A DNA stretch of 64,000 bases from Nitrospiraceae bacterium (GTDB lineage: Bacteria > Nitrospirota > Nitrospiria > Nitrospirales > Nitrospiraceae): positions 744,001 to 808,000 of the forward strand of contig JAHBWI010000002.1 of assembly GCA_019637075.1 (NCBI GenBank), read 5' to 3'. The stretch's first letter is position 1. Each line of letters begins with the position of its first letter. The position numbers and the translations under genes are program-made. Under the pieces are notes generated by a model, which was given only the letters and a program-made list of their open reading frames with translations, was not told the origin of the DNA and searched no databases. Positions 9,564 through 19,551 of this stretch are shown here, piece by piece.

Positions 9564-10535
9564 TCAATTCCCCGCCGGCGCTGAGACGGCGGCGGCCTGC
9601 GCCCCCTTGTCCTGCACGTCCCGCGCACAACGGAAACCCATCCAATTGATCTTGGTATTCGGATCCGTTCCATTCCTCATCGCAGCGCGCATGGTCGTAG
9701 TGCTGTCCATCCAGCCGCCGCCACGAAAGGCCTTTTGTGTCCCACTATTAGGCCCCTTCGGATTTCGGTCCGGGGCGCTCTTGTAATAATCCTGGTCATA
9801 CCAGTCGTTCACCCACTCCGAAACGTTACCCATCATCTGGTAAAGGCCGTAGGGGCTCACGGCATTGTCATACTTGTCCACGGAAATAAGGGGTGGATAC
9901 AGCAGAAGCCGCTCCGGACGGTCACGCACAGGACCCGACAGACCGGTCCTACCGAAATTCGCGCGAGTCAACCCCGCAGACTGATTACCCCAGGGATTCA
10001 GGCGACCGTCTTCACCTCGAGCCGCCTTCTCCCATTCCGCCTCGGACGGCAAGCGCTTGCCTGCCCAGCGGCAGTAGGCATCAGCGTCGAACCAGGACAC
10101 ATGCATGATGGGATGGTTGGCCATCGTGTCCTGGAAATTGCCGCCGTCGTATCGCCAATCAAGCTGCGGGTTTCGCCCAGTCGACAAGATGAACTTCATA
10201 TAGTGGAGGTTCGTCACCTCGTACTTATCAATCTCATAGGCATCCAAGTAGACCTTTCGCTGCGGCAGTTCGGAACGGTAGGCCACGCGGTCAACCTTCT
10301 TGTCGCTGCCCATAAGGAACTCGCCGGCGGGAATGAGAACCATCTCTTCCTTCGGCGTCCAGGTACGAACCCGCTCCTCGGCCAACTTGCGCCCTTCCGG
10401 GGTGAATTCAACGATGATATCTTGCGTGTCCAGCCCCCAGACCGCGTTGGCCAGGGAAAGGATCGCTGCTCCAGCCAGGAGCGCGTTTACTACCCATTCA
10501 ATCCGTCTTGTCTGCCTCTGCGCCTGCGACTGCAT
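9564..10535 (-). CDS. FGE-fold (SUMF1-like) periplasmic protein, first of a tandem pair
   Basis: A 323-residue exported protein of the formylglycine-generating-enzyme fold. After a signal or anchor helix (about residues 15-35) come the family marks VLIPAGEFLMGSD, VYLDAYEIDKYEVTN, HPIMHVSWFDADAYCRWAGKR, LPSEAEWEKAARG, GNVSEWVNDWY, FRGGGW and GFRCARD. True FGE needs two cysteines between FRGG and GFRC; here that stretch (STTTMRAAMRNG) has none, so sulfatase activation is unlikely. Non-catalytic relatives include NirV beside copper nitrite reductase. Start ATG at 10535 follows AAAGGAGG. It lies 48 bases after its paralogue in a run of genes ending at the multicopper oxidase, so a role with that oxidase is plausible. 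Confidence 0.88.
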   Translation of the reverse strand: MQSQAQRQTRRIEWVVNALLAGAAILSLANAVWGLDTQDIIVEFTPEGRKLAEERVRTWTPKEEMVLIPAGEFLMGSDKKVDRVAYRSELPQRKVYLDAYEIDKYEVTNLHYMKFILSTGRNPQLDWRYDGGNFQDTMANHPIMHVSWFDADAYCRWAGKRLPSEAEWEKAARGEDGRLNPWGNQSAGLTRANFGRTGLSGPVRDRPERLLLYPPLISVDKYDNAVSPYGLYQMMGNVSEWVNDWYDQDYYKSAPDRNPKGPNSGTQKAFRGGGWMDSTTTMRAAMRNGTDPNTKINWMGFRCARDVQDKGAQAAAVSAPAGN

Positions 10536-10583
10536 TTTCGGCCTCCTTTGAAGTATCTCCACACGGTGAATCATCACGGGCGA

Positions 10584-11507
10584 TCAGGGGATCGCCTCCG
10601 GCCTGCGTGACGCTTCCCGTTTCACGCTCAAGGTTTCCTGCGCATTCTGCGCGCATCGAAATCCGGTCAGGTAACTCCGTCTTCCCGGTTCGCCGCCGTT
10701 ACGGCCAGCTGACCGAGCCACTTCCGGATCCTCATTCCATGAACCGCCTCGAAACACCCGCAACTCTCCCGTCTCAGGCCCTTTCGGATTACGATCCACG
10801 CCCTTGCGGTAGTACTCCGGATCAAACCAATCCGCGACCCACTCACTCACATTGCCGGCTAGCTGGTAGACCCCATACGGGCTGACACCTTTGTCGTAGC
10901 GATTGATGTTGGCAAGCGGCGGATACTTGGCGCCGCGCTTCGATCCCGGGTGAGCGATGTTGCTCTTGATCCAACCGGCTGGTTCGTCGCCCCAGGGAAA
11001 CATTCGACCATCCTCGCCTCGCGCGGCCTTCTCCCATTCCGCCTCGGTCGGCAACCGTTTGCCCGTCCAACGGCAGTAGGCATGCGCGTCTTCCCAACTG
11101 ACATTGATGACCGGGTGCAGTGCCATCTTGTCCGCGAAGGGTTTGGCTCGCCAGAACTGCGGCCAGTCGGCTCCGGTGGCGAGCACATAACGCAGGTACT
11201 CCACATTCGACACTTCGAACCGATCGATCGTGAACGCATCGAGATAGACGCGATGCTGCGGGAACTCCTGCGGACCGGCTGCCCGATCTTTGCGAGGATC
11301 GCTTCCCATCAAAAAATCTCCGGCAGGGACCAGCACCATCCCCCCCGGTGCCTCCAGCGTCGCCATTTGCTCGACCTCATCGACGGGCGTCCATAGCGGC
11401 GGCTGTTTCGCCGATTCATGGTTGGCACGCGCGGTCGGCGCGAAGGTGCCCGCGAGCGCACAACCGACAATGACACATGAAAACACGAACCACCTGCACT
11501 TAGTCAT
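10584..11507 (-). CDS. FGE-fold (SUMF1-like) periplasmic protein, second of a tandem pair
   Basis: A 307-residue paralogue of the neighbouring gene. Signal peptide about residues 1-28 (cleavage near ARANHE), then VLVPAGDFLMGSD, VYLDAFTIDRFEVSN, HPVINVSWEDAHAYCRWTGKR, LPTEAEWEKAARG, GNVSEWVADWF, FRGGSW and GFRCAQN. As in the other copy, the region that should hold the catalytic cysteine pair (NEDPEVARSAGRNGG) contains none. The fold is therefore probably used as a binding module or for another chemistry. It is 16 bases downstream of the cupredoxin-like gene, which suggests co-transcription. The two FGE-fold proteins could form a heterodimer; this is inference. Confidence 0.88.
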   Translation of the reverse strand: MTKCRWFVFSCVIVGCALAGTFAPTARANHESAKQPPLWTPVDEVEQMATLEAPGGMVLVPAGDFLMGSDPRKDRAAGPQEFPQHRVYLDAFTIDRFEVSNVEYLRYVLATGADWPQFWRAKPFADKMALHPVINVSWEDAHAYCRWTGKRLPTEAEWEKAARGEDGRMFPWGDEPAGWIKSNIAHPGSKRGAKYPPLANINRYDKGVSPYGVYQLAGNVSEWVADWFDPEYYRKGVDRNPKGPETGELRVFRGGSWNEDPEVARSAGRNGGEPGRRSYLTGFRCAQNAQETLSVKREASRRPEAIP

Positions 11508-12681: not shown

Positions 12682-15600
12682 TTACTTCATGGCGGTTGGA
12701 ATGGCCTGCGGCTGAGGCGCCACTTCCGCTTGGCGCGCCCCGGTTCCGCCGGCGCTCAGAGACTGAATCCGGGAGTCGCCAGCCGGCAACACACGGAGGT
12801 AGCCCCACTGTCCGGACTGCGTGTAGGGCAGCCGCTGGTTGGACCACACGAAGTCTCCGACCTGGCGATACGGACCGCCCGCACCGCCGCGGAGGAAGAC
12901 ATCGAGGGTTTCAGACCCGGCATACTCCACCACGCTGATCATGTCGGCACCCGGCATGTACGGCTCGATCGGCCACTCGTGGCCCTCGATGCCGAACATT
13001 CCGTTCTGTTCGCTGTTCGCGCCGACCACGTGGATGCGGACCGGGTCACCCGCGTGCGCCTCGATCAACGGCGTCACGGGATCCTCGGGCTTATCCACCT
13101 TGCACGGCTGGAAGATCTTGCCCAGCGAGCAGCCTTCTTCCTCACGGAACTTGTACGGTTCCGCGCGGTAGTTGACCGACGTCAATCCGGCTACGTTCTG
13201 CACGTACGGCATGAACGCGGTTCCGATGATGTTGTCCTCGTCCTGGAAGAACAAGGCCACGTCACGGTAGTTCCGCTTGCCGACGTTCTCCGGCAGGCTG
13301 GCGTCGACGATGACATCCGCACGCCAGGTATTCTTCAACGATACATCCGCACCGGTCACCGGGTCGCGGTACTGCGAACCCTTCGGACCGATCACGATCG
13401 CGCCGTACAACCCGTTGCGCGGGTTGACCACGATATTACCGCCGTCCCACACCAGGGAGGTCGTCTCCTTGTTGGCGGGATGCGCATAATAGGTGTAGTT
13501 CCGGCTTTCGCCCGGACCCACGGTCTGATCGCCGCCGTTGTTGCCGACGTTCAGGCCCTGGCTGTCTCGCGGATCGAAGGCAAGGCCCGGGACGAAGAAC
13601 GACGCCCGGCTGGCCTTCATCTTGTTCTTCAGAGTCACCTTGATGCAGTCGCCCAAGTTCGCACGCAGCGTGAGCGGATTCGGCATCACGTTGCCCGCGA
13701 CCGTGGCGGCCTCTTCCTCGAGCGCGAAGATCTTGCCTTCCGGCATGGTCATTTCAATCTTACGCTCGAAGTCCACTTCGATGGCATCCGGCGCCTTCGG
13801 ATTGAGCTTCATCGGGCGATCCAACGCCACCACGTTGAAGTTCTTCACCGGGGCGTCCGACGGACACACCGAGCTCGGCGTGGCAGGGATCCCGAGCGGG
13901 TTGGTACCCTTCGGGAGCGGCATCAGATCCGCAACCTGCTTGTCGAGCACGCGGACGATACCCCATCCACCTTCGGCGAAGTGCGAGCTCCGGCCGTTGA
14001 AGTGGATGTAGTCGCCCGGCATACCCTGGAATCCACCCGCCTTGGTGACGAGGTCATACCGCTCGGCGATACCGACGTGAATCGAGTACTTCCGGTTGGC
14101 ATCCGCCGCATACCGCTCCGTGAGGAAGGTATGGCCGGCGATCGTCCAGACGTGAGATTCGTTCATCAGCTGGTGCAGCAGACGGAACACCATCGTGTCA
14201 CCCGTGTAGGCCCGCAAGAGGGGCGTGTCCGGGTCACCGTGGATCGCGCTGCTGAACAGCTTCGATGTGTCAGGATTGTTTGAGAGGCGCTGCGCAAACG
14301 GTTCCGCGCGGAAATTGAAACCGCTGCCGGTCGTGTGCGTACCACCGTTGATGTACTTGTTCGGCGCGTTCAAGATCTTATCGGGCATCTGGAACGACAC
14401 CGTCTTACCTGCTTCCAACGCCACTTCGATCGGCTGTCCAGGAGGATTGCCGGCTTCAATGACGTTGACCGTGTGGGGCACCGTGTCGTGGATGGAGACC
14501 ATCAACTCACGGAAGCTGCCGCTCACACCGGCACCGATCGGCTCATTCGTATGGATGTCCGCAACCGGTCCGCTCCAAACGAGCTTGCCATTCTTCGGAT
14601 CGTGATAGGTGGACCCGAACGGCTCCACGATCGTCACGCCGAACCCGCCATGCGGCCAGGTCGTCGCGCCGAACGCGTGGTCATGCCAGAACACGGTCCC
14701 CAAATCCACGTCCACCCACCACCGATACCGGACGAACTCCGGCGACACGAGGTCGTTGGCCGGGTGGTTGTTCTTCAACGGCTTGAAGAAGGTCACCTGG
14801 TCGCCCTTGATTTCCTTGATGCGGGCGACTTCGGAGCAACTCTTGTCCCGCGCCAAGGAGGCCGTCGGGTCGTTGCCCTTTTCCAAGCAATCCATGCCCA
14901 CCATGAGTTCGGTGTTGGGATGGAACTTTGATGCACCGGGAGCCATCTCGATCTTGATCGAGGTCGCTCCGGCTTTCGCTCCACCGACGACCTTGGCGAC
15001 CATCGGAGCAGGCAAGCCGTGCTTGGTCTTCTTGCCCCACATAGTGAAGGGGCGAACGGACATCTCATACTCCATGCCCGAGATCACTCCGTCCGAGTTC
15101 CCTGTATCGAACTGGAAGAAGTGCGGGTGGATGTTGATCTTCGACGACTGGAAGTTCGTGTAGTCGTCGTCGTCCCACTCGCTGGTCAAAAGTATGTCGA
15201 CGCAGTCATACACGTTGGCGCGAATGACAGCCGGCAACTTGAGATCGTCGTTGGCACGCGTGAGGTTTTCTTCCTCATGCAGCAAGTAGATCAGACCGTC
15301 CTTGTCCGTGATGGCCGGCTCTTTCCCTTGCTTCTTGGCCAGGGTGATCGGCATGCGGACAAAGTGAATGTTGTAATGCTTCCGATTGGCGTTGTCAGGG
15401 CACAGGCTCCAACGACCCTGTTCGCCCGGCATCGCCGGCTCGGAGGTCCGCTCACCGTTGGCATCCTGGTGAATCGGCTCCAACCATGGCGCACCGCTGT
15501 GGTTCGCAGAGAACGGCACGCGCTTGCCGAAGTGCGGCTTGAACAACGGCCAGGCCATTTTTCCCGTCGTCGGATCGAACAGGATCGCCGGTCTGGTGCT

Positions 15601-17619
15601 GTCATCCCACTTGGCCGCCCATGGATACTTCGGATTCTGGGCCGTGCTCTCCCGCTCACCGCGGGCGATGTTGCCGTCCCACTTCCAGTCCCACACCGTC
15701 GAGTCATAGGCCATGATCTGGCCCTTCTCATCGTTGGTGTGGCCCGGTTGACCCTGAGCCGGCACGAACATTTCCACCCAATCCTTGATGTTCACGATCA
15801 CAGGATCGGACTTCCAGTTCGTCTTCTGGCTCTTGTCGACGATCTTGAAGGTCTTGCCGAACCAGTCGACCGTGGTGCCGATCAACTTATCCGACGAGAC
15901 ACCCTGCTTCATGCGGCCCTTGCGATCCGGCAATTCCTGCAAGTCCGGCATCGTGTCGGTGTGCGCATTGCCGACCTGCAACGTATTGTAGAACCGGCCG
16001 TACCCCCACATGCCCGCCACATAGTGGTGCGCCACGTGGCAGTGATAGAGGAATTCGCCGGCCAGGTGCTGACAGCCACCGCCGCCGCATTCCGGCTCCA
16101 GGTCCAAGGCTTCCGACGGACCGATGACTTCCACGTCGACCCGATCCGACTTCGTCCGGACCACCGGATACTTCACCGGACCGTCCTGACCCATCGCCCA
16201 CATGTTGTTGGGCTCGGTCACCGGGCTGCGCTGCCAACGGATGGTCCCGCTGTGCGGATGGTGGGAGTGGAATACTTCCGACCCGCCATGGACCACCCGC
16301 CACTTCACCGGCTCCCCGAGGTAACCGCGGGCAATCGTGGTGGGCGGGTCACCGAAGGTGTAGGCGCTGTAGGCCAGCGATTCATCTTCGAAACCGAAAT
16401 ACTCATGCTGCAAATGCATCTGATCGATGCCGAACGGCTCGCTGCGATAGTTCAACGCGCGGCCGCCCGGACGATAGGCGTCCGTCAGCGGATCGCGCTG
16501 CGGCAAGAAGTCACCCTTCTTGTTCAGCGGACGGAAGGCTTCGTCGCCGATTTCGTGATAGAACAACACGAACTCGCGGAAGTCCGGTCCCGACCCGTTA
16601 TCGATGTTGACCTGCCAACCGCTCTTCACTTCCTTGTCAGGCCCGCTGCCTATGGAGTCGAAGTACTTCGAGCCCTTCGGCTCGACGATGAAGGCCCCGA
16701 AGAGACCCAAGACCGTCAACTCGCGGTCATGGCTCCAGGAGTGGAACTGACGCACACCTTCCTGCATGTTCGGATGGATGTACCATTCGAACTCCTGGCT
16801 CTTGCCCGGGGACACGATGGCATCCGGGTTCGTGGTCGTCGCCGGCTTGCCGGTCGAGCTCACGATCATGCTGGAGGCCTGGATGAACAAGCTGCCATCC
16901 TCGCCTTCCATCTGGTTGCGCAGCGTCATCTTGACGCAGTCACCCTGGTTGGCGCGCAAGACCAGCGGCTGAATCACGTCGCCCTGCAACCCGGTTGTCA
17001 CGGCTCCCGGATCAAAGCCATCTTTCTCTCTGGACGCTTTGTTTTTCGCTTCCTCGGCGCGGGCCTGGTCGACATCCTCGGTATGGACATACATGTACCC
17101 GGGATAATAGTCCAACCAGCGGTTCAACGTGACCTCGATGTTGATCATCGAGACGTCGTACTTCTTCACCGGCGCATTGGCAGGACATTTCCCGCCGGAC
17201 GTCAACACCGGTTCGCCCTTACTCGAGTCCGACATGAGCAGGAAGCTGCTGCCGTCCTGCCCCATGTACTGGTGCATCATCGACATGTCGTTGAACGCAC
17301 CCGACGTCGGTTGAGCCTGCCCATCCTTGTAGGCCTGCTCCTGGAGCTTCTCCATCAAACGATGGTGCTGCAGCTCCATCTTCTCCGAGCGATCAGGACG
17401 CCCTTCGATCGTGTCCTCCACGACTGTCTGACCCTTCAGGGCCTGAGTCCAACCCGGCATCGAGACGGGCTTCGCATGTCCATCATGCGACTGATCTCCC
17501 GGCCCGGCCGCAAATAACCACGGCGTCGCGAGCAAGCTGCTCGTCAGAAACGCCGCTTGCAAGCCCAGCGTCGTACGACGCCGGCGCCTGCGCTGGGATG
17601 AGTACCATGAAGACCTCAT
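12682..17619 (-). CDS. Giant multicopper oxidase, 1645 residues, motif order C-D-A-B (MnxG-like)
   Basis: Exported multicopper oxidase built from many cupredoxin-like units. It has an Arg-rich start, a signal peptide to about residue 38, and the four HxH-type copper motifs once each: FHSHHPHSG (450-458, type C), FLYHCHVAHHYVAGMWG (523-539, type D with the type 1 copper Cys527), HPHFFQFD (831-838, type A) and FWHDHAFG (977-984, type B). Ordinary laccases run A-B-C-D, so the order here is permuted. The remaining units (about 1100-1645) lack full ligand sets. Very long multicopper oxidases include Mn(II) oxidases (MnxG, Pseudomonas McoA/MnxG), so oxidation of Mn(II), Fe(II) or another metal is possible, not shown. 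A strong AAGGAGGGAGG lies before the ATG. Regulation appears to involve sigma-54 and a structured leader. Confidence 0.93.
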   Translation of the reverse strand: MRSSWYSSQRRRRRRTTLGLQAAFLTSSLLATPWLFAAGPGDQSHDGHAKPVSMPGWTQALKGQTVVEDTIEGRPDRSEKMELQHHRLMEKLQEQAYKDGQAQPTSGAFNDMSMMHQYMGQDGSSFLLMSDSSKGEPVLTSGGKCPANAPVKKYDVSMINIEVTLNRWLDYYPGYMYVHTEDVDQARAEEAKNKASREKDGFDPGAVTTGLQGDVIQPLVLRANQGDCVKMTLRNQMEGEDGSLFIQASSMIVSSTGKPATTTNPDAIVSPGKSQEFEWYIHPNMQEGVRQFHSWSHDRELTVLGLFGAFIVEPKGSKYFDSIGSGPDKEVKSGWQVNIDNGSGPDFREFVLFYHEIGDEAFRPLNKKGDFLPQRDPLTDAYRPGGRALNYRSEPFGIDQMHLQHEYFGFEDESLAYSAYTFGDPPTTIARGYLGEPVKWRVVHGGSEVFHSHHPHSGTIRWQRSPVTEPNNMWAMGQDGPVKYPVVRTKSDRVDVEVIGPSEALDLEPECGGGGCQHLAGEFLYHCHVAHHYVAGMWGYGRFYNTLQVGNAHTDTMPDLQELPDRKGRMKQGVSSDKLIGTTVDWFGKTFKIVDKSQKTNWKSDPVIVNIKDWVEMFVPAQGQPGHTNDEKGQIMAYDSTVWDWKWDGNIARGERESTAQNPKYPWAAKWDDSTRPAILFDPTTGKMAWPLFKPHFGKRVPFSANHSGAPWLEPIHQDANGERTSEPAMPGEQGRWSLCPDNANRKHYNIHFVRMPITLAKKQGKEPAITDKDGLIYLLHEEENLTRANDDLKLPAVIRANVYDCVDILLTSEWDDDDYTNFQSSKINIHPHFFQFDTGNSDGVISGMEYEMSVRPFTMWGKKTKHGLPAPMVAKVVGGAKAGATSIKIEMAPGASKFHPNTELMVGMDCLEKGNDPTASLARDKSCSEVARIKEIKGDQVTFFKPLKNNHPANDLVSPEFVRYRWWVDVDLGTVFWHDHAFGATTWPHGGFGVTIVEPFGSTYHDPKNGKLVWSGPVADIHTNEPIGAGVSGSFRELMVSIHDTVPHTVNVIEAGNPPGQPIEVALEAGKTVSFQMPDKILNAPNKYINGGTHTTGSGFNFRAEPFAQRLSNNPDTSKLFSSAIHGDPDTPLLRAYTGDTMVFRLLHQLMNESHVWTIAGHTFLTERYAADANRKYSIHVGIAERYDLVTKAGGFQGMPGDYIHFNGRSSHFAEGGWGIVRVLDKQVADLMPLPKGTNPLGIPATPSSVCPSDAPVKNFNVVALDRPMKLNPKAPDAIEVDFERKIEMTMPEGKIFALEEEAATVAGNVMPNPLTLRANLGDCIKVTLKNKMKASRASFFVPGLAFDPRDSQGLNVGNNGGDQTVGPGESRNYTYYAHPANKETTSLVWDGGNIVVNPRNGLYGAIVIGPKGSQYRDPVTGADVSLKNTWRADVIVDASLPENVGKRNYRDVALFFQDEDNIIGTAFMPYVQNVAGLTSVNYRAEPYKFREEEGCSLGKIFQPCKVDKPEDPVTPLIEAHAGDPVRIHVVGANSEQNGMFGIEGHEWPIEPYMPGADMISVVEYAGSETLDVFLRGGAGGPYRQVGDFVWSNQRLPYTQSGQWGYLRVLPAGDSRIQSLSAGGTGARQAEVAPQPQAIPTAMK

Positions 17620-17847
17620 ATGTCGGCCTCCCTCCTTGTATTTCCCGCACCCTTACCGCGGGAGTGGTTAAGAAACTTGGTCGTGTGACCGGCCTCCGTC
17701 AGGAAGGATCCCGGCTGCTCCGGCCTCTCTTGACTTTCCCCCACGAAATACAACTCAAGGAAAGTAAGAGCTGGTGAAGGATTCCCTCTTGCGAGAGAGC
17801 AGGTCATTCGGAGGCCGGTCCTAATCACCCGCACCTTCACCAGCGGT
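17620..17847 (-). promoter_or_regulatory. Structured 5' leader of the multicopper oxidase mRNA
   Basis: If transcription starts near 17847, the leader is about 228 bases. Arm P1 CTGGTGAAGG (17843-17834) pairs perfectly with CCTTCACCAG (17780-17771). Inside that loop, GACCGGCCTCCG (17820-17809) pairs over 12 bp with CGGAGGCCGGTC (17698-17687), which lies outside P1, giving a pseudoknot-type layout. The same inner segment can alternatively pair over 8 bp with GAGGCCGG near 17730. A 63-codon frame (ATG 17808, TGA overlapping the oxidase ATG) also crosses the leader but has no Shine-Dalgarno site. It fits no riboswitch class I recognise. Confidence 0.55.
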
Positions 17848-17858
17848 CTCTTCCTACC

Positions 17859-17873
17859 GCAACAGCTGTGCCC
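17859..17873 (-). promoter_or_regulatory. Sigma-54 type promoter for the multicopper oxidase
   Basis: Minus-strand GGGCACAGCTGTTGC matches TGGCAC-N5-TTGC except for the first base, with GG and GC doublets at exact spacing. It faces the oxidase gene. A sigma-54 activator gene lies immediately upstream, and a palindrome sits about 160 bases upstream. Confidence 0.6.
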
Positions 17874-18029
17874 GAATGTAGCATAAAATATAAATAGAAA
17901 TTTTTTGTCGTAGTTTCCAACACTTGAATGTGCAGATGAATCACGAGTTGGGAAAACCCTACGCCGCACAAATCCACAGCACTAGACACTCTTAGAGATA
18001 TCGTATTAGGCACAACGAAATATCAACGA

Positions 18030-18061
18030 GTTACACCGTCTAAACACTTAGACAGTGTAAC
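18030..18061. promoter_or_regulatory. Palindromic candidate enhancer site upstream of the oxidase promoter
   Basis: Arms GTTACACCGTCTAA (18030-18043) and TTAGACAGTGTAAC (18048-18061) are inverted copies with one mismatch, separated by ACAC. The distance to the sigma-54 element (about 160 bases) is typical of activator sites. A weaker related sequence, ctagacactcttaga, lies near 17981-17995. The rest of 17874-18159 holds nothing else recognisable. Confidence 0.55.
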
Positions 18062-18159: not shown

Positions 18160-19551
18160 CTACTGAATATCGTATTCGCGGAGCTTGTTATAGAGACTGG
18201 CGCGACTGATTTTGAGCAAGCGCGCTGCCTTCATGCGATTGCCAGCGGCTTGCTGCAATGCTTGCAAAATTCTCGTTCGCTCAACCTGCCGGACTGCCCC
18301 ACGGGAAGCTGCGCGAAGGTCCACACCCTCGGTCGTACTCTTGCCCAAAAGATCCCTGCAGGGCAGATCCGTCCCTGTAGTCGTGACGACGGCACGTTCG
18401 ATGTAGTGCTGCAACTCCCGCACATTGCCGGGCCAGGCAGCGCTCGTCAAGGCGCGCATGGCGTCATCACCCACGTCCCGAGCCGGCTGGCGATGCCGCG
18501 CACAAGAATCCGCCACAAATCGCCTCACAAGCAATGGGATATCACTGCGCCGGTCGCGCAACGGCGGCAAATGAAGCGGCAGCACCGCAAGGCGATAGTA
18601 GAGGTCCTGCCGAAAGGCCTTCATCTTGACTAGCTCGGCCAGATCCTTGTTGCTGGCCGAAATAACGCGCACGTCGATCTTGATGGATTGCGTGCCACCG
18701 ACCCGCTTGATCTCGCCTTCCTGGAGCACACGAAGCAATTTGGCCTGGAACGTCGGAGTCGTGTCCGCGATCTCATCCAGGAACACCGTGCCGCCGTCGG
18801 CTTCCTCGAACAGCCCTCGCTTGGCACTGCTGGCTCCTGTAAATGCGCCTTTGACGTGGCCGAACAATTCGCTTTCCAGCAGTGTCTCGGGAAGGGAGCC
18901 GCAATCCACGACCACGAAGGGTTTATCCCGCCGGTAGCTTGTCTTATGGATGGTTCTGGCGACGAGCTCCTTACCGGTTCCGCTTTCACCCTGAATCAGA
19001 ACAGTGGCCGAGCTGTCTGACACTAACGTGATCATATCGAACAACTGCCGCATGCCCGGGCTGCTACCGATCAACTCCCCAAGGCCCTCAGAACGTCGCT
19101 CGGGGCGCCTGGTTCCCTCCATCGGCTCAGGAATGGGCAAGGAAGTAACGGTACCACTCGGCGGCTGCCGAAATAAAACCAGCACCATCCCGACTTCGCC
19201 GTTGCTCGACGTCAAAGGTAACGCCTGGTACATGCCGCAAGGGGTAGCTGCCGCAGCAACCGATTTCGCTGCCTCCTGGGAGTCAAACACCGAGGTCGCC
19301 GGGCAGGCACTGCAGTGGTCTTGGAGTTGGACGAAGGCTTCGTAACACTTGGCAGGGCGTTCGCCTGATTCGCCGGGATTGGTCCGACCCCAGGCCGCTT
19401 CATTAGCATAGATCACGTTGAACTCGCGATCCATCACGGCGACCTGATCCTTCATACCTCCGGCGAGTTGCATGAGGGCATCGACACGGGCAGCCAAAAT
19501 CGGATCACTAAACGCACTTTTGCCGCTATGCTCCGGCCGGGCATCGGTCAT
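18160..19551 (-). CDS. Sigma-54 enhancer-binding protein with Cys-bearing PAS domain
   Basis: A 463-residue transcription activator that hydrolyses ATP to open sigma-54 promoters. The N-terminal PAS domain (about residues 22-130) carries Cys69, Cys80, Cys83 and Cys105 (KCYEAF, DHCSACP), suggesting a metal, cluster or redox sensor rather than a phosphorylated receiver. The AAA+ domain has GESGTGKE (188-195), a perfect GAFTGA (235-240) and VFLDE (256-260). A Fis-type helix-turn-helix ends the protein (AARLLKISRASLYNKLREY). AAGGA precedes the ATG. It lies upstream of the oxidase leader on the same strand, about 540 bases from the oxidase start, and is the best candidate for its activator. The receiver gene upstream probably shares its transcript. 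Confidence 0.92.
   Translation of the reverse strand: MTDARPEHSGKSAFSDPILAARVDALMQLAGGMKDQVAVMDREFNVIYANEAAWGRTNPGESGERPAKCYEAFVQLQDHCSACPATSVFDSQEAAKSVAAAATPCGMYQALPLTSSNGEVGMVLVLFRQPPSGTVTSLPIPEPMEGTRRPERRSEGLGELIGSSPGMRQLFDMITLVSDSSATVLIQGESGTGKELVARTIHKTSYRRDKPFVVVDCGSLPETLLESELFGHVKGAFTGASSAKRGLFEEADGGTVFLDEIADTTPTFQAKLLRVLQEGEIKRVGGTQSIKIDVRVISASNKDLAELVKMKAFRQDLYYRLAVLPLHLPPLRDRRSDIPLLVRRFVADSCARHRQPARDVGDDAMRALTSAAWPGNVRELQHYIERAVVTTTGTDLPCRDLLGKSTTEGVDLRAASRGAVRQVERTRILQALQQAAGNRMKAARLLKISRASLYNKLREYDIQ

Follow-up and report, generated by a model that had tools for sequence, protein, structure and literature searches.

What does the leader of a giant multicopper oxidase gene do with several stretches that can all pair with the same short loop? 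In the window (the whole stretch of 64,000 nucleotides of Nitrospiraceae DNA that was analysed), this leader runs on the minus strand from approximately 17847 down to 17620, with a conserved RNA part of about 75 nt. An earlier note on the window had described two interlocking perfect inverted repeats here, and both were found on the minus strand; the 12-bp repeat (17687-17698 with 17809-17820) was exactly as described, whereas the shorter one (17770-17780 with 17834-17844) has 11 bp and not 10, being one base pair longer than claimed. The alternative 8-bp partner that had been placed near 17730 proved to be GAGGCCGG at 17720-17727, and the downstream arm, put at about 70-80 bases from the start codon, was measured at 68-79 nt. 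A fourth member of this set of sequences had been overlooked; it lies at 17624-17631 and is the Shine-Dalgarno region of the oxidase itself, GGAGGCCG. The parts of the leader are the following:

17770-17844, minus strand: three-way-junction leader RNA domain P1-P2-P3 (alignment A1, covariation; model R1, E 1e-15 here)
17834-17844, minus strand: 5' arm of P1, GCUGGUGAAGG (inverted repeat and covariation)
17802-17830, minus strand: P2 hairpin with the invariant apical loop (alignment A1; its pairs are mostly invariant and have less covariation support than those of P1 and P3)
17809-17820, minus strand: anti-Shine-Dalgarno loop GACCGGCCUCCG (complements the leader's own RBS, the decoys and the MCO-B RBS)
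17783-17797, minus strand: P3 variable hairpin (double changes in 6 of 6 pairs)
17770-17780, minus strand: 3' arm of P1, CCUUCACCAGC (inverted repeat and covariation)
17720-17727, minus strand: decoy 2, GAGGCCGG, an 8-nt complement of the loop (repeat search)
17687-17698, minus strand: decoy 1, CGGAGGCCGGUC, a 12-nt complement of the loop (repeat search; duplex energy -28.9 kcal/mol)
17624-17631, minus strand: Shine-Dalgarno region GGAGGCCG, an 8-nt complement of the loop (forward-strand letters CGGCCTCC)

The repeats had been judged unlikely to arise by chance, and when 17620-17969 was shuffled 2000 times with dinucleotides preserved, a perfect 12-bp inverted repeat appeared in 0.05% and an 11-bp one in 0.6%, while the two together were never obtained (0/2000). 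The folding energy of the leader corresponded to z = -3.6 relative to its own shuffles. Two other candidates in this region were dismissed: a 117-aa open reading frame overlapping the leader (17616-17969, minus strand) was rejected as a gene, having no Pfam match and an RNA-like pattern of conservation, and a 9-bp pair (17636-17644 with 17745-17753) was absent from the relatives inspected by eye and was treated as chance.

A nucleotide search with the intergenic region gave short matches in 46 of 100 related genomes, centred on the P1-P2-P3 hairpin and located upstream of giant oxidase genes. Alignment A1 comprises 35 distinct hairpins, and in it P1 (11 bp), the interrupted P2 and P3 together left 95% of the cells paired, as compared to approximately 38-56% in slid controls. 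Compensatory change of the arms in relatives, on which the earlier note had made its proposal depend, was evident, as double changes occurred in 12 of 24 pairs (47 cells versus 12 in shuffles) and 0 of 500 shuffles reached the observed value. Double changes were present in 6 of the 11 pairs of P1, where 99.7% of the cells were paired, whereas P2 is mostly invariant, and it is thus P1 and P3 that carry the covariation support. In 35 of 35 sequences of A1 the apical loop GGACCGGCCUCCG was identical; the conserved leader RNA is made up of P1, P2 with its invariant loop GGACCGGCCUCC, and the variable P3.

Of the 175 genomes that make up the family of the window, 151 carry the element according to model R1; seven more with it belong to a sister family within the order, and the rest of the phylum sample gave no match. 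When a 24-base pattern containing the loop was searched against 84,980 species, 100 stretches were returned, and the matches listed, which include N. defluvii and N. moscoviensis, were all labelled Nitrospira, Nitrospiraceae, Nitrospirae or Nitrospirota, except for one Nitrosospira label that is probably a mislabelled comammox bin. Among 156 loop-plus-stem candidates for which the downstream sequence was long enough, 144 had a giant oxidase gene within about 600 nt downstream. By eye, the 12 exceptions were mostly antisense or coding matches; two resemble real hairpins, one having its oxidase further downstream (L335) and the other seemingly having lost it (L490). In L335, a MAG contig, the oxidase starts approximately 800 nt past the hairpin leader; a sequence of the GGGGAGGCCAA type separates the two, as if the leader had been duplicated or interrupted.

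Searches of the window and seven related loci against Rfam 15 yielded zero matches at the gathering threshold, in agreement with the earlier statement that no known riboswitch class has such a layout, and at a relaxed E-value two weak sub-threshold matches only. The more general proposal of a structured leader RNA whose pairings exclude one another was likewise borne out, as the fold covaries and the loop has competing partners. In its layout, the leader resembles a riboswitch in the functional sense, with a conserved structured 5' domain and an alternative pairing that reaches an expression signal; a riboswitch would in addition bind a small ligand directly. Judged by comparative sequence analysis, the element is a previously uncatalogued conserved leader RNA structure.

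The gene that follows this leader encodes a distant relative of a manganese oxidase:

12682-17619, minus strand: giant multicopper oxidase MCO-A, 1645 aa (Cu-oxidase_3; distant MnxG homologue)

Assignment of MCO-A to the multicopper oxidases follows from its PF07732 score (43.9 versus a cut-off of 21), with PF00394 just under its cut-off. It matched the structure of MnxG (PDB 9bxa) with E 2.4e-85 and scored 113 against the MnxG equivalog NCBIfam NF041487, for which the cut-off is 3100; MCO-A thus resembles MnxG, a manganese-oxidising multicopper oxidase, as a distant homologue below the equivalog cut-off. Many Nitrospirales genomes encode several paralogues of the giant oxidase. Downstream of the oxidase and on the same strand, two adjacent genes resembling EgtB/formylglycine-generating enzymes were observed at 9564-11507.

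Upstream of the leader, three features bear on its transcription:

17859-17873, minus strand: sigma-54 promoter GGGCAC-N5-TTGC (GGGCACAGCTGTTGC), assigned by sequence motif, with a predicted start at approximately 17847
18030-18061, unstranded: conserved palindrome CTGTCTAA-N6-TTAGACgG (inverted repeat)
18160-19551, minus strand: gene of a sigma-54-dependent activator (NifA/NtrC-type, 463 aa; Pfam Sigma54_activat E 3e-70, HTH_8)

The promoter has the sigma-54 form GGYA-N6-YTGC, for which a start is expected about 12 nt downstream, and the same motif precedes 88 of 99 leaders, usually at a distance of 9-14 nt from P1. A transcription start downstream of 17780 had been named as incompatible with a leader RNA; the start predicted at 17847 lies upstream of this position, and the RNA would thus begin at P1. 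The near-perfect palindrome, with the consensus CTGTCYAA-N6-TTRGACAG, was present in 104 of 125 sigma-54 leaders as compared to 2.6% in a shuffled control, in most cases some 230-237 nt ahead of the loop, and the copy at 18030-18061 is a probable activator binding site (UAS). Sharing of such a palindromic activator site would imply a small sigma-54 regulon. The activator gene upstream of the oxidase is a candidate activator of the leader promoter. Its adjacency, frequent as it is, was rejected as a universal feature, a homologue being found in 56 of the 110 loci taken from around hairpins and oxidase genes. The N-terminal region of the activator contains a cysteine-containing stretch, CYEAFVQLQDHCSACPA, that might be a metal or redox sensor. 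On the coding strand of the MCO-A leader, neither an intrinsic terminator (none near P1) nor a sigma-70 promoter was found, and a processing site releasing a short leader RNA is possible. Small RNAs had been removed in one N. moscoviensis transcriptome (PMC6606698).

The RBS of MCO-A, GGAGGCCG, lies a few bases before the ATG and complements the loop. A contiguous RBS-loop complement of at least 7 nt was present in 90 of 99 leaders and one of at least 8 nt in 73 of 99, while an 8-nt complement was seen in 2.1% of shuffled RBS controls. The earlier note had considered direct masking of the RBS no likelier than other effects, a view that must be revised since the most conserved partner of the loop is the RBS itself. 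The 12-bp and 8-bp partners that it did describe are real, but they are extra copies competing with the RBS, the key partner that had been missed. Of 99 leaders, 49 have such decoys between the hairpin and the RBS, as compared to 1.2% of shuffled spacers, and the two decoys of the window leader are the pairings spotted before. The duplex energies with the loop were -28.9 kcal/mol for decoy 1, -18.8 for decoy 2 and -19.2 for the RBS in cis, as compared to -30.2 kcal/mol for the trans target described below (the MCO-B RBS). Decoy 1 is stronger than the cis RBS and near the trans target, and may thus keep the loop occupied; decoys of this kind may tune the pairing of the loop.

Taken across the leaders compared, the loop-RBS pairing is well supported. 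Since the MCO-A loop is invariant, its own pairings show no compensation. The cis complement has been lost in a few loops (L123, L258, and L262). The sister family includes g24, a genus with small genomes, in which no hairpin was detected in some of the sigma-54 oxidase leaders; these have the RBS GGAGACC, GGAGGTGA or GGAGGCTA, with the exception of G061, which retains GGAGGCCG. The combination of GGAGGCCG and ATG was tried as a mark of the regulon and rejected, as there were approximately 26-83 sites per genome, about twice the reversed control; the 8-mer alone is uninformative, whereas the 12-mer is informative.

The 12-mer leads to MCO-B, a paralogous oxidase whose gene has a promoter of the sigma-70 type and no hairpin leader. 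The RBS of MCO-B is AAGGAGGCCGGTCCATG, in which GGAGGCCGGTCC complements the loop exactly, and the message thus carries a 12-nt loop complement (GGAGGCCGGUCC) immediately 5' of its AUG. The 15-mer GGAGGCCGGTCCATG was found in 45 of 100 relatives, mostly at MCO-B starts, and its reversed control in none (0). Within the 4.06-Mb genome of the window the 12-mer occurs five times, in the loops of three leaders that precede MCO genes (one of them the window's) and in two RBSs, one of which is that of MCO-B. On contig C10 of the same genome (L191), GGAGGCCGGTCCATG is present at 1167-1181 and at 1467-1481, 300 nt apart; MCO-B starts at the second copy, an 11-codon open reading frame at the first, and for the latter a role as leader peptide or as decoy target is conceivable.

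A third oxidase type, MCO-C, has a related leader (alignment A3 and model R2) that covaries too, and its loop, unlike that of MCO-A, varies. In four genomes of one genus (G058, G154, G189, and G121), an MCO-C loop GGACCGACCUCC (as GGACCGACC) is accompanied by an MCO-B RBS GGAGGUCGGUCC (GGAGGUCGG), and in two genomes of two genera (G032 and G208) an MCO-C loop GGACUGGCCUCC (as GGACUGGCC) is accompanied by an MCO-B RBS GGAGGCCAGUCC (GGCCAGUCC). The unchanged counterpart of GGACCGACC is the loop GGACCGGCC, and the RBS-side change GGAGGUCGG alone leaves a G-U pair; in G039, G036, G046, and G207 the loop has U while the RBS is still G, indicating that a G-U pair is tolerated. The changes of loop and RBS affect two different positions, one of them in two genera. 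Across the 23 genomes with both partners, 269 of 276 positions were Watson-Crick pairs and one was a mismatch, and none of 20000 permutations matched loops and RBSs as well (0/20000), in a test that ignores relatedness. Genome G193, read after this tally, had a single mismatch and a single wobble pair. When two loci show compensatory changes that can be read from sequence, this argues strongly that their RNAs pair in trans; the pairing of the MCO-C leader with the MCO-B RBS is supported by such change, whereas for the MCO-A loop it is exact complementarity that suggests an action in trans as well.

Six genomes yielded no MCO-B, and in these the loop of the MCO-C leader has drifted to GGAUUGGCCUC(C/U). 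For the drifted loop GGAUUGGCCUCC there was no other exact complement in genomes G049 and G145, and additional sites were present in the remaining genomes of the six. Conversely, an exact MCO-B-type RBS occurs in three genomes of the sister family (G067, G070, and G077), and one with a single change in two genomes of another family of the order (G060 and G072), all with no hairpin detected; the site may thus have another partner in such genomes.

The explanation that we favour, and regard as probable, is an anti-Shine-Dalgarno riboregulator that controls its own message in cis and the message of MCO-B in trans. The sigma-54 transcript would start at P1 and fold into a three-way junction displaying the loop GGACCGGCCUCC. 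In cis, this loop would pair with its own Shine-Dalgarno sequence GGAGGCCG as a pseudoknot, blocking ribosome binding, or alternatively with the upstream decoys, leaving the ribosome site free; being transcribed ahead of the RBS, the decoys may capture the loop first, and the oxidase would then be translated. A loop left free could mask its own RBS, and the MCO-B RBS as well, whether as part of the mRNA leader or of a processed fragment. In trans, the loops of MCO-A and MCO-C would pair over 12 nt with the RBS of the leaderless MCO-B and silence it. Sigma-54 activation would thereby be coupled to a choice between the oxidase paralogues, in which the switch may be set by a ligand, a protein or cleavage. 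Our sequence comparisons demonstrate the fold, the complementarity of loop and RBS, and the compensation between MCO-C loop and MCO-B RBS; from these we infer that pairing represses translation, as well as the direction of this control and its signal. Hence, the leader probably decides which sister enzyme is made. If so, a single change in the loop or the RBS would break the silencing of MCO-B and a compensatory pair would restore it, and the element would exemplify the choice of an enzyme paralogue by a leader RNA.

A ligand-binding riboswitch would be compatible with this riboregulator and would add a ligand to it, the junction serving as aptamer for a metal, a redox cofactor or another compound and the loop-RBS pseudoknot as expression platform. 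This reading is in keeping with the compact junction conserved at the very 5' terminus, with the pseudoknot-type alternative pairings and with the strict association with copper oxidases; however, strong conservation is seen mainly at nucleotides that pair with RBSs or belong to the stems, P3 varies freely, the MCO-C leaders share the loop while their junction differs, and the riboswitches of Rfam gave zero matches, and we consider a ligand-binding function possible but rather unlikely. A response to copper or redox state, which the earlier note had labelled as speculation, is still to be regarded as speculative. Purely cis translational control, in which the loop masks its own RBS only and the MCO-B RBS is similar by inherited untranslated regions, would be in line with the near-universal cis complement among hairpin-bearing leaders and with the presence of MCO-B-type RBSs in genomes without a detected hairpin. 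Yet the complement in MCO-B spans 12 nt versus 8 nt in cis while the remaining leader sequence is unalike, and the altered MCO-C loop of G058 fits MCO-B and not its own RBS. The complementary co-change of MCO-C loop and MCO-B RBS is impossible from shared ancestry, and an action restricted to cis is in our view improbable.

The inverted repeats could also be operator sites for a protein, acting as DNA and not as RNA helices. Palindromes are common near activator-controlled promoters, and a real one is found upstream at 18030-18061, but the repeats in question sit downstream of the sigma-54 promoter within the predicted transcript, three helices covary as RNA with G-U pairs included, and the loop of a related leader covaries with a distant RBS, which makes a DNA element very hard to maintain. 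Chance repeats in GC-rich DNA would draw on the GGCC-rich words that are frequent in the genome of the window; the shuffles, the conservation in more than 150 genomes and the covariation leave this a negligible probability, conservation having already refuted it.

Nitrospira are nitrite- and ammonia-oxidising bacteria that are central to nitrification and water treatment, and the element is widespread in this group and tied to giant copper oxidases related to the manganese oxidase. In the literature on Nitrospira riboswitches, small RNAs, MnxG, and multicopper oxidases we found no description of it. We see an even chance that it represents a new RNA family of nitrifying Nitrospira that combines cis self-control with trans shut-off of a paralogue, with a loop coevolving with the target RBS and possibly switched by metal or redox state.

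Among known systems, the alpha-r14 or 'cuckoo' sRNAs of alphaproteobacteria, such as NfeR1, are free-standing RNAs that carry three hairpins with CCUCCUCCC and have many targets (PMC10746234). Like these, the Nitrospira element uses a hairpin to display an anti-Shine-Dalgarno motif that pairs with RBSs, and has an ultraconserved loop on variable stems. Unlike the sRNAs with their three CCUCCUCCC hairpins, it is an mRNA leader with the single loop GGACCGGCCUCC, and its exact 12-nt matches in its own genome are only oxidase leaders and MCO-B-type RBSs, in contrast to the many targets of cuckoo RNAs. Pairing of a loop with mRNA RBSs, as in cuckoo RNAs, is indicated for the MCO-C leader by sequence comparison only. 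SreA, a SAM riboswitch of Listeria that acts in trans on prfA, is released by transcription termination (PMC8079631) and is similarly a 5' leader with a role in cis that is able to pair with a second mRNA in trans, hindering translation; for the Nitrospira leaders, such trans pairing is indicated by covariation only for MCO-C and by exact complementarity only for MCO-A. While SreA senses SAM, targets an unrelated gene and pairs upstream of the Shine-Dalgarno site, the Nitrospira leader, which is without known ligand or terminator, would target a paralogue and cover the Shine-Dalgarno sequence itself.
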